Program-made: the position numbers and the translations under genes | From: Leadbetterella sp. | GTDB lineage: Bacteria > Bacteroidota > Bacteroidia > Cytophagales > Spirosomataceae | Assembly: GCA_019638185.1 (NCBI GenBank) | Contig: JAHBUH010000009.1 | Span: 62,001-126,000 of the forward strand | Direction: 5' to 3' | DNA: 64,000 bases | Notes under the pieces: model-generated | The model's database searches: none | What the model saw: the letters and a program-made list of their open reading frames with translations, nothing else | What the model was told of the DNA's origin: nothing | In this document: in pieces, positions 43,829 through 47,566 of the stretch | Layout: each line of letters begins with the position of its first letter | Numbering within the stretch: the first letter of the stretch is position 1

Positions 43829-45124
43829 CTAAACCTCGTTTAAGCGCTTGCCTTCCAGGGATGAAAACCGCTCGTGCTTCGGCTCACCGATCACCTGTTT
43901 CCCGTAAATGCTGGTATGCCCTGATACTAAATACGAGACCACGCAGGCCAGGGCCACATACACCCCGCACTCCCCACCGAATAGCTCTATCGCCATCAGG
44001 GTGCAGGCTATGGGCGTATTGGTAGCGCCGGCAAATACCGCCACAAAGCCCATTCCCGCCAAAAGCCCTACCGGAAGCGGGATAAAATACGCCAGGGCGT
44101 TTCCTAACGTGGCACCGATAAAAAACAGGGGGGTCACCTCTCCGCCTTTAAAACCCGCCGATAAGGTGATAATGGTGAAAACCATCTTCAAGGCAAAATC
44201 ATAAGCCGGCAGGGGCTGCCCGAAAGAGCTGACAATAGTGGGAATGCCCAGGCCAATGTACTGCGTGGTTCCCAGCGCCCACACACCGGCCACCACCAGG
44301 ACCCCGCCGGCTACCGGGCGCAGGGGCGGATAAGCGATCCTGGCCTTAAAAATCCGGCCGGCCCAATGGATCACTTTGCTGAACGTGGCAGCACATATCC
44401 CGAAAAATACGCCGGCCATAATAGCGTAGACCATATTCAGGAAAGAAATGTCCGGGATAAAGGGAATATCATAATGCGTGTGCTGCGCCCCCCACAGCTT
44501 AGTCACCTGGTCCGCAATAAGCGCGGTCATCAGGGCCGGTAAAAGGGCATTGTACCGGATACGCCCGATCAGGGAAAACTCCAGGCCAAACAGGGCACCG
44601 GCCAGCGGCGTGCCAAAGACCGATCCAAAACCGCCGGCAATGGCCGAGATGATCAGCACCTTCCGGTCCGCCGCTGAAAGCCGGAAGGGCCTGGAGAACT
44701 GGTCGGCAATGGCCCCGGCCATCTGCAAAGCCGTGCCTTCCCGGCCGGCCGAACCGCCAAAAAAATGGGTGGCGATGGTGCCTATGTACACAAACGGCGC
44801 CATGCGGAACGGGATCACCTTTTTAGGCTCATGAATGGTATCAATCAGGAGATTATTACCGGCCTCCGCCTCCTGGCCGAAATAATAATACATCAGCCCG
44901 ATGAGAAATCCCCCCACCGGCAGCAGGCCGATCAGCCACAAATGACTCTCCCGGAAGTCAGTAGCCCGGTCCAGCGAAATAAGAAACCCGGCTGATGCAC
45001 TGCCGATACACGCGCCCGTAAACAGCGAGATCAGCACCCATTTAAGGATATACAGAAAGGCCGGATACTTTCGGAAGAATCGTTGAACGAAGAGGCTTGC
45101 TTTTTTGCCGTATGACTTTTGCAC
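43829..45124 (-). CDS. CLC-F type fluoride/proton antiporter
   Basis: 431-residue CLC-family membrane protein. GREGTALQMAG near residue 128 is the CLC gate-region motif. The usual GSGIP serine motif is replaced by GNNLLIDTIHEP near 91, and FKGGEVTPLFFIGA near 316 has the Glu-x-Thr typical of the fluoride-exporting CLC-F branch rather than chloride CLCs. No CBS domains. Start is GTG at 45124; no in-frame ATG is available nearby. A fluoride riboswitch lies in its leader, which supports the substrate independently. Confidence 0.9.
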   Translation of the reverse strand: MQKSYGKKASLFVQRFFRKYPAFLYILKWVLISLFTGACIGSASAGFLISLDRATDFRESHLWLIGLLPVGGFLIGLMYYYFGQEAEAGNNLLIDTIHEPKKVIPFRMAPFVYIGTIATHFFGGSAGREGTALQMAGAIADQFSRPFRLSAADRKVLIISAIAGGFGSVFGTPLAGALFGLEFSLIGRIRYNALLPALMTALIADQVTKLWGAQHTHYDIPFIPDISFLNMVYAIMAGVFFGICAATFSKVIHWAGRIFKARIAYPPLRPVAGGVLVVAGVWALGTTQYIGLGIPTIVSSFGQPLPAYDFALKMVFTIITLSAGFKGGEVTPLFFIGATLGNALAYFIPLPVGLLAGMGFVAVFAGATNTPIACTLMAIELFGGECGVYVALACVVSYLVSGHTSIYGKQVIGEPKHERFSSLEGKRLNEV

Positions 45125-45130
45125 AGAATA

Positions 45131-45165
45131 CCTGATTAAATACTTGAAACATTTAATTAATCAGG
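45131..45165 (-). promoter_or_regulatory. Competing hairpin at the clcF start (riboswitch expression platform)
   Basis: On the minus strand CCTGATTAA (complement 45157-45165) pairs exactly with TTAATCAGG (complement 45131-45139), ending 6 nt before the GTG start. Its first two C's (45164-45165) are also used in the riboswitch pseudoknot, so the two structures exclude each other. This fits fluoride-dependent opening of the translation start region (inference). Confidence 0.6.
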
Positions 45166-45218
45166 CGTCATCAGCTTTCGTGAAGCGGTTGGGTAAGGAA
45201 GAACACCATTTCCTTTCT
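45162..45218 (-). ncRNA. Fluoride (crcB-type) riboswitch
   Basis: Read 5'-3' on the minus strand: P1 AAGGAA/TTCCTT (complement 45210-45215 and 45195-45200) closes the loop ATGGTGTTC. The conserved joining AACCGCT follows, then P3 GCTT/AAGC, then GCTGATGACGCC. Loop GGTGTT (45207-45202) pairs fully with GACGCC (45169-45164), forming the pseudoknot. This agrees with the fluoride aptamer consensus (GATGGcgTTC ... AACCGCT ... AGCTGATGACgCC) almost base for base. It sits in the leader of a CLC-F gene. Confidence 0.92.
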
Positions 45219-45219
45219 G

Positions 45220-45227
45220 CAAAGATA
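45220..45227 (-). promoter_or_regulatory. -7 box TATCTTTG before the riboswitch
   Basis: Complement of 45220-45227 is an exact TAnnTTTG. Transcription would start about 45213-45216, right at the 5' side of riboswitch P1. Confidence 0.6.
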
Positions 45228-45307
45228 AATGGCTTTTTACAGTTTTTTTTTGTATCTTACAAATTATATTTCAAACTTACGTGCTGTAGTTAATCCGCGA
45301 TACGAAA

Positions 45308-47566
45308 ATGAGTGTGGAAACAGAAAAAGTGACTACGGAATACTATTCCGAGCCGGAAAAGAAAGAAATTGCCAAGCGCTACCGGAAGATCCTGAAGGCG
45401 GCCCGGGCATTGATTAAGGAGGGAGATGCCAAAATGATCCGGAAGGCGCTTTCGGTCAGCATGGACGCCCATAAGGAAATGCGGCGTAAATCCGGTGAAC
45501 CCTACATTTACCACCCTCTGGAAGTGGCCCTCATCTGCGTGGAAGAGATCGGGCTGGGGCCTACGTCTATTGTATGTGCTCTGCTGCATGACGTGGTGGA
45601 AGACACCAGCATCACCCTGAAAGACATCGAAAAAGATTTCGGCCCCAAGGTAGCCCAGATCATTGACGGCCTCACCAAGATCGGCGAGAGCTTTGAGCAG
45701 ACCCAGTCGGCACAGGCGGAAAACTTCCGGAAAATGCTGTTGACGCTGTCGCAGGACGTGCGCGTCATCCTCATCAAGCTGGCTGACCGCCTTCATAACA
45801 TGCGTACCCTGGACAGTATGGCCAGGAACTCCCAGCTTAAGATCTCTAACGAGACCATCTACATCTATGCGCCCCTGGCCCACCGCCTCGGGCTCTACCA
45901 GATTAAGTCGGAGCTGGAAGACCTCTATCTCAAATACACCCACCCCGAGGAGTTCAAAGACATCACCTCTAAGCTGAATTCCAGCAAGACCTCACGGAAA
46001 AGGCTGATTGATAACTTCATGAAGCCCATCAAAAAAAGGCTGGAAGAAGCCAGCCTCGAATTTTACATCAAAGGCAGGCCCAAGCACATCTACTCCATCT
46101 GGAAAAAACTGCAGAACACGAACATCCCTTTTGAAGGAATATATGACCTCTTCGCCATCCGGATCATCCTGAAAGGTATTCCCGTAGGCGAAAAAGAAAA
46201 AGAAAAAGCCTCCTGCTGGCAGGCTTATTCCATTGTTACGGACGAGTACCGCCCTAACCCTGACCGCCTCAAAGACTGGATCTCCACCCCGCGGTCTAAC
46301 GGCTATGAGTCACTGCATACCACCGTGATGAGCAATGCCGGCGTATGGGTGGAAGTGCAGATCCGCACCGAACGCATGGATGAAATAGCCGAGAAAGGAT
46401 ATGCTGCCCACTGGAAATACAAGGGGAACAGCACCTCACTTGACAAGCCCCTGGACCGGTGGATCGACCAGGTGCGGGATACCCTGGAAAGCGGCGACTC
46501 CTCCGCCATTGAGTTCATTGAAGATTTCCAGAGCAACCTCTTTAACGAGGAAATCTTCATCTTTACTCCCAAAGGAGACCTGAAAGTGCTCCGGAAAGGG
46601 GCTACCGTGCTGGATTTCGCTTTTGACATCCACACCGAGATCGGTAAAAGATGTACCGCCGGTAAAGTAAACGGTACCCTGATGCCCATCAGCCACGTGC
46701 TCCAGAGCGGTGACCAGGTGGAGATCCTTACCACTAAAAACCAGAAGCCCTCGGAAGACTGGCTGCGTTTTGTGGTTACCTCCAAGGCCAAAGCCCGTAT
46801 CAAAGACGTCCTGAAGGAATCGAACAAGGGCTACATCAGTGAAGGCAAGGAGATCATAGCCCGCAAGCTGAAAAACCTGGGCATGGAGAATAACCTGGAG
46901 ACGATTAACCAGCTCCGGGCTTACTTCAATAAAAAAGACTATAACGACCTCTTCTATGCTTTCGGCAAAGGCCATAACCTGCCTGACGAAATCAGTAAAT
47001 TCAAGAAAGAGAAAGAAGCCCAGGCTAACCGACAGAAAAAAATAGAGCTGGATGAAAAAGCCTTTAAAGACGCCAAGTCCTTTGAACGGGAGTTTAAAAA
47101 GGTGCAGGGGAATGATACACTGCTGATCGGTGACGACATGCAGCAGATCGACTTCACCCTGGCACGGTGCTGTAATCCCATCCCCGGCGATGACGTTTTC
47201 GGCTTCCTGACCATTAATGAAGGCATCAAGATCCACCGGAACAGCTGCCCCAATGCCCACCAGCTGCTATCTAATTACGGTAACCGCGTCATCAAAGCCC
47301 GCTGGGCCAGCCAGATCGAAAAATCCTACCTGGTTACCATTAAGTTAAACGGTATTGACCGCGTGGGCCTCATCCAGGATATTTCAAAAGTTATCTCTAA
47401 TGAACTTCATATTAACATGCGGGGCATTTCCGTTGAAACTTTTGATGGTATATTTGAGGGAAAAATCAAAGTATACGTTTTTGACACCAAACATCTGGAT
47501 GAGCTGCTGCACCGCCTGGAAGGCATAGAAGGCGTAAGTAATGTCTCAAGGGATGAAACCGTATGA
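45308..47566 (+). CDS. RelA/SpoT (p)ppGpp synthetase/hydrolase
   Basis: 752-residue long RSH enzyme of the stringent response. HD hydrolase domain about 45-200 with an intact HDVVEDT site near 98 and PYIYHPLEVA near 65; synthetase domain about 240-360 (YDLFAIRIILKG, SNGYESLHTTVM, YAAHWKYKG); TGS about 410-470 (IFTPKGDLKVLRKGATVLDFAF); C-terminal zinc-finger-like LARCCNPIPGD near 620; ACT about 675-745. Both catalytic domains look functional. Shares its 183-bp upstream gap with the divergent riboswitch/clcF leader. Confidence 0.95.
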   Translation: MSVETEKVTTEYYSEPEKKEIAKRYRKILKAARALIKEGDAKMIRKALSVSMDAHKEMRRKSGEPYIYHPLEVALICVEEIGLGPTSIVCALLHDVVEDTSITLKDIEKDFGPKVAQIIDGLTKIGESFEQTQSAQAENFRKMLLTLSQDVRVILIKLADRLHNMRTLDSMARNSQLKISNETIYIYAPLAHRLGLYQIKSELEDLYLKYTHPEEFKDITSKLNSSKTSRKRLIDNFMKPIKKRLEEASLEFYIKGRPKHIYSIWKKLQNTNIPFEGIYDLFAIRIILKGIPVGEKEKEKASCWQAYSIVTDEYRPNPDRLKDWISTPRSNGYESLHTTVMSNAGVWVEVQIRTERMDEIAEKGYAAHWKYKGNSTSLDKPLDRWIDQVRDTLESGDSSAIEFIEDFQSNLFNEEIFIFTPKGDLKVLRKGATVLDFAFDIHTEIGKRCTAGKVNGTLMPISHVLQSGDQVEILTTKNQKPSEDWLRFVVTSKAKARIKDVLKESNKGYISEGKEIIARKLKNLGMENNLETINQLRAYFNKKDYNDLFYAFGKGHNLPDEISKFKKEKEAQANRQKKIELDEKAFKDAKSFEREFKKVQGNDTLLIGDDMQQIDFTLARCCNPIPGDDVFGFLTINEGIKIHRNSCPNAHQLLSNYGNRVIKARWASQIEKSYLVTIKLNGIDRVGLIQDISKVISNELHINMRGISVETFDGIFEGKIKVYVFDTKHLDELLHRLEGIEGVSNVSRDETV

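Follow-up and report, generated by a model that had tools for sequence, protein, structure and literature searches.

A fluoride riboswitch on a CLC-F gene of Leadbetterella sp. and a conserved hairpin beside the start codon that may control translation

In the fluoride (crcB) riboswitches of B. cereus and T. petrophila, one strand of the pseudoknot switches partner and becomes part of a terminator base (PMC11077080, PMC13273304). The latter, a survey, reports 323 of 1901 fluoride riboswitches as functional transcription switches, with translational fluoride riboswitches of Pseudomonas syringae and Burkholderia pseudomallei serving as controls; words beginning with "bacteroid" were absent from its main text. 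Among the open-access matches listed, no title or abstract start dealt with the expression platform of fluoride riboswitches in Bacteroidota. For TPP riboswitches of Bacteroides, control of transcription or of translation is claimed in a 2019 preprint, as cited in PMC7366714. Two further papers report that ribosomes of Bacteroidia do not recognise Shine-Dalgarno sequences (PMC9976891) and that F. johnsoniae adjusts initiation through structure near the start codon and adenines at positions -3 and -6 (PMC6847099).

The locus compared here with these systems lies in a 64,000-nucleotide stretch of a Leadbetterella sp. contig (referred to as the window). RF01734 was the sole Rfam match above cut-off in the window, covering 45222-45155 of the minus strand and model positions 1-64 of 64, and the search of the 4.22 Mb genome (95% complete) yielded no other fluoride aptamer. 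Its score was 50.0 bits against a gathering score of 34 (E 7.3e-11), and a chance match is no serious alternative. The aptamer precedes a fluoride-resistance gene of the same orientation. The preliminary description had claimed a fluoride aptamer at this place and proposed a covariance-model search with RF01734; this search gave a significant match with all six pseudoknot pairs intact, and the -7 box, P1, the loop and pseudoknot, AACCGCT, P3 and the core were each found on the minus strand where they had been placed. Its further claim that the whole gene-control unit was readable held for the aptamer and promoter box and missed the expression platform: the earlier annotation ended at 45162, and the functional unit continues to the start codon GTG at 45124-45122. 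The features are as follows.

45220..45227, minus strand: -7 promoter box TATCTTTG, directly before the aptamer
45155..45222, minus strand: fluoride riboswitch aptamer, RF01734 (50.0 bits, E 7.3e-11, cut-off 34)
45215-45210 with 45200-45195, minus strand: P1, AAGGAA with TTCCTT (6 bp)
45202..45207, minus strand: pseudoknot 5' strand GGTGTT, pairing with GACGCC
45190-45184, minus strand: conserved joining region AACCGCT
45186-45183 with 45177-45174, minus strand: P3, GCTT with AAGC
45175-45168, minus strand: core GCTGATGA
45164..45169, minus strand: pseudoknot 3' strand GACGCC, whose last two bases double as the hairpin base
45157..45165, minus strand: 5' arm of the expression platform, CCTGATTAA (also given as CCUGAUUAA), 9 bp stem with covariation in relatives
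45131..45139, minus strand: 3' arm of the expression platform, TTAATCAGG (also given as UUAAUCAGG), ending 6 nt before the start codon
43829..45124, minus strand: gene for a CLC-F type fluoride/proton antiporter, GTG start, 431 aa (6d0j 214.6 bits against 1kpl 44.2; Pfam Voltage_CLC 241.8 bits)
45107..45116, minus strand: stretch early in the coding sequence that would pair with the aptamer core in the predicted fold without fluoride (window-specific)

The GGTGTT/GACGCC pseudoknot of the window contained six pairs, two of them G-U. The pairing of these strands reached 0.982 in 91 of 92 relatives (defined below) against a permutation maximum of 0.929, indicating that they covary. Judged from its sequence, the fluoride riboswitch before the CLC-F gene is intact and an ordinary member of the known class, presumably binding fluoride. 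The motif TAnnTTTG, which we take to be the -7 consensus of Bacteroidota, was present at most 40 nt before P1 in 77 of the 92 relatives and in 5 of 368 control windows. No -33 box of the Bacteroidota type was seen upstream of TATCTTTG at the spacing searched, assumed here to be the usual one in this phylum; the nearest upstream TTTG (45263-45260) ended 32 nt before the -7 box.

A search of solved structures gave 214.6 bits for the CLC-F antiporter 6d0j, aligned with residues 28-410 of the window protein, and 44.2 bits for 1kpl, the best-scoring CLC of another kind; the protein is thus nearer to CLC-F than to chloride CLC, in agreement with the CLC-F gene claimed in the preliminary description. 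GGEVTPLF and the GRE motif, which we regard as the family-defining residues of CLC-F, were common to both proteins in the alignment. None of the NCBIfam models reached its cut-off with the window protein, and the nearest, ClcB and ClcA, stayed far below theirs. The protein therefore resembles 6d0j over residues 28-410 but has diverged in sequence, and fluoride transport is predicted. Since no match to CrcB/Fluc was found in the genome (a 95% complete assembly), this CLC-F is probably its main fluoride exporter, as far as an incomplete assembly tells. The next gene, gldB (start ATG 43789), had its own TAAATTTG box at 43806-43799 (minus strand), 9 nt before the ATG, and need not depend on the fluoride-controlled transcript.

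The aptamer and its gene are textbook material, and the useful part is the expression platform. Downstream of the aptamer, the two arms formed a 9 bp stem that none of 300 shuffles of the downstream sequence equalled. The 5' arm begins with the two bases that end the pseudoknot strand GACGCC, and the full hairpin and the full pseudoknot are therefore mutually exclusive; the seven A-U-rich pairs of the hairpin can persist with the pseudoknot formed. When folded without the pseudoknot, the leader had a minimum energy of -24.6 kcal/mol, in a predicted structure where the hairpin helix continues into the aptamer core and, on the opposite side, into codons 3-6. The stability of the whole leader (107 nt) was not unusual relative to shuffles (z -1.23); the 63 nt from the core onwards were unusually stable (z -2.84), and 1 of 100 coding shuffles was as stable as the early coding stretch. 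A helix between the core and the first codons was rejected as a general property, since shuffling of the early coding sequence gave a mean z of -0.33, negative in only 32 of 60 relatives; this helix is a feature of the window only. The word GTCA occurred within the first 16 nt of 26 of the 60 genes, which are related to each other; at seven later positions no more than 3 of 60 had it, and at the early position 1 of 50 window ORFs (uncurated). An ATG lay between the hairpin arms in 32 of 60 relatives (shuffled expectation 0.58) and was open and in frame in 5; an upstream ORF from the loop ATG of the window (45152-45150) was discarded.

Among 200 genomes of the family, 42 had an RF01734 match (38 above cut-off), as had 55 of 395 genomes of the class (40 above cut-off). 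Together with loci from named genomes, 110 aptamers exceeded the cut-off, and removal of 18 that were more than 90% alike left the 92 relatives; sub-cut-off matches, 5 from the family (L060-L064) and 15 from the class, were left out. In an ungapped stem test, which was devised after the outcome of a duplex-energy test was known, the hairpin was significant at p<=0.05 in 66 of the 92 and at p<=0.01 in 49, and did not reach p<=0.05 in 26. The mean stem was 6.9 bp, compared with 4.4 bp when arms were swapped between species. The free duplex-energy test (45 of 92 at p<=0.05) had been replaced since it often picked gapped arms or wrong starts, including an out-of-frame ATG for the window. In a stricter test of covariation, the 3' arm was set solely by RGG before the start codon and pairs 4-8 were scored in the 58 of 92 relatives that were usable (34 having no usable anchor or ORF). 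The proportion of paired cells was 0.883, against a mean of 0.594 and a maximum of 0.717 in permutations that preserve column make-up, not relatedness (reached by 0 of 2000). When each distinct arm was counted once (23 rows), the corresponding values were 0.765, 0.506 and 0.678 (0 of 2000). Pair 5 alone occurred as A-U (26), U-A (14), C-G (11) and G-C (3). Sixty relatives combined a significant hairpin with a clear start; the distance from the 3' arm to the start codon was 5-11 nt for 42 of them and between -1 and 2 nt for 15. Three starts at -1 nt (GTG overlapping the stem) were probably miscalled.

Several loci had an arrangement of their own. In one genus of the class (L117, L121, L122, L126, L129 and L132), the aptamer preceded short genes, of which the two tested were both CrcB (Pfam), and the complement of the CCUAC end of the aptamer lay inside the coding sequence, mostly not significant individually. 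Two Chryseobacterium genomes (L075/L076 and L084/L088) each carried two units of aptamer and CLC-F, with identical proteins in one genome and different ones in the other. A single contig (C35 of G577) carried two fluoride aptamers (L104 and L123) in the same orientation, separated by about 1.8 kb.

Beyond the aptamer, the hairpin, the bases that they share, the covariation, the hairpin's place beside the start codon and the absence of terminator-like sites, all of which were observed here, we infer fluoride binding, the transcription start, translation as the controlled step and a block that is structural, not of the Shine-Dalgarno type. This fluoride riboswitch probably turns on CLC-F translation through an exchange between hairpin and pseudoknot beside the start codon. 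Transcription would start just before P1. In the absence of fluoride, the 3' strand of the pseudoknot would yield to the hairpin ending 6 nt before the GUG, with a helix that in the species of the window may reach into codons 3-6, and ribosome binding would be hindered. If fluoride is bound, the pseudoknot would be locked, so that the hairpin base and the extended helix could not form, the antiporter would be made, and fluoride would be expelled. Since Bacteroidia ribosomes ignore Shine-Dalgarno sequences, the hairpin should act via local structure. The distances of the arm from the start, the tuning of initiation by start-codon structure and the origin of the AGG in the 3' arm as a complement of the aptamer's CCU led us to read the switch as translational and structural. 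Modelled accessibility was less favorable: when the aptamer was set aside, the mean unpaired probability at -9 to -1 changed from 0.43 to 0.53 in the 60 relatives and stayed at 0.55 in the window, where +1 to +9 went from 0.87 to 0.64, the start region being not more open, and +10 to +18 opened from 0.12 to 0.52. These changes, as modelled, are small and count against a translational switch, as do the seven hairpin pairs that can coexist with the pseudoknot, the 26 of 92 relatives in which the hairpin stayed above p<=0.05 and the unremarkable stability of the whole leader. The start codon of the window lay in a bulge between helices in the predicted fluoride-free fold, and the block would therefore have to be steric.

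Transcription attenuation, in which the hairpin would terminate transcription without fluoride as in the crcB riboswitches of B. cereus and T. petrophila, is unlikely here. In its favor, the known terminator type rests on the same exchange of a pseudoknot strand into a downstream hairpin (PMC11077080), and T is fairly frequent in the 8 nt that follow the 3' arm (3.9 of 8 positions on average in 60 relatives, 5 of 8 for the window). The search of 45000-45400, however, gave no terminator-like site, no terminator-like U-run followed the hairpin, the tail TATTCTGT is interrupted, and the stem is mostly A-U. Furthermore, a start codon -1 to 2 nt past the stem, as in 15 of the 60 relatives, leaves no room for a terminator tail before the gene. 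Still less probable is a translational switch that masks a true Shine-Dalgarno sequence, namely the AGG of the 3' arm. This AGG was located 5-9 nt before the start in 39 of the 58 relatives with a usable anchor and in the window, compared with 2 of 50 uncurated window ORFs, but its spacing was 0-2 nt in 13 of the 58, and the CCU of the aptamer already dictates AGG as its complement. In addition, Bacteroidia ribosomes are described as blind to such sequences, and a weak AGGA left a reporter virtually unaffected (PMC9976891). The eight genus siblings that keep CLC-F without a detectable aptamer indicate that the sensor can be lost, but a mere remnant before a gene without fluoride control is highly improbable, since the core, pseudoknot, promoter box and hairpin were all intact in the window.

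Named genomes supplied 29 close CLC-F relatives (Weeksellaceae, Flavobacteriaceae, Sphingobacteriaceae, Emticicia, a Chitinophagaceae MAG and others), and the aptamer accompanied 27 of them; the two outside this count were Arcicella aurantiaca (L080) and L093 (data without the upstream region). No aptamer match was obtained in nine genus siblings, eight of which carried a CLC-F gene with 55-70% identity to the window protein, nor within 1 kb around the CLC-F start in these eight with permissive filters. The window protein was 76% identical to that of Elizabethkingia and at most 70% to those of the siblings. In the closest sibling by SpoT (G073; 93%), spoT and gldB are divergent neighbors whose ORFs are 156 nt apart, and the same gap of the window contains the aptamer and CLC-F. 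Neither CLC-F nor the aptamer was found in the G073 genome, which carries a CrcB/Fluc gene in another place (L137, L138); one type of fluoride exporter is thus exchanged for another within the genus. In the other eight siblings, spoT and gldB were on different contigs. Because the unit lies between two genes that are adjacent in the closest sibling, it was probably acquired, which is the simplest reading; its loss in G073 is possible. In a 45-row tree, the window was placed inside a group of 26 aptamer-bearing rows (support 95/93), and the seven aptamer-free rows formed one group (96/84), fitting a single loss there. A tree holding the window together with six siblings was not rejected (p-AU 0.129; siblings G047 and G101, with CLC-F identities of 55 and 56%, were excluded from the test). 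A transfer of the CLC-F unit is likely, and common descent with the siblings stays compatible with this value. In a 102-row tree (111 CLC proteins minus 4 identical and 5 short rows), explaining the aptamer label took 8 changes, of which well-supported branches impose at least 4. For the fluoride riboswitches of Bacteroidota as a group, the chances are about even that a conserved, covarying hairpin some 0 to 11 nt from the start takes the pseudoknot strand, that control is translational by structural exclusion of the ribosome without a Shine-Dalgarno sequence, and that the cassette of aptamer and CLC-F moves between families.

A switch of this class would provide a clean, inducible test of the way in which mRNA structure alone gates initiation in Bacteroidia, with dozens of natural variants, and may be of use as a fluoride-inducible expression part for Bacteroidota. 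P. syringae and B. pseudomallei use Shine-Dalgarno sequences. Their switches and that of the window are alike in control without termination, and differ in that masking of a Shine-Dalgarno sequence is unlikely in the window. The terminator-type crcB riboswitches of B. cereus and T. petrophila share P1, P3, the conserved core, the six-pair pseudoknot and the strand exchange with the window, which differs in having no terminator-like site and a mostly A-U hairpin beside the start codon. The TPP riboswitches of Bacteroides belong to the same phylum and have, in the cited passage, a proposed control of translation, with another ligand and aptamer. The platform described here is conserved and apparently independent of Shine-Dalgarno sequences, and its hairpin beside the start codon suggests how a riboswitch can control translation where ribosomes ignore such sequences.
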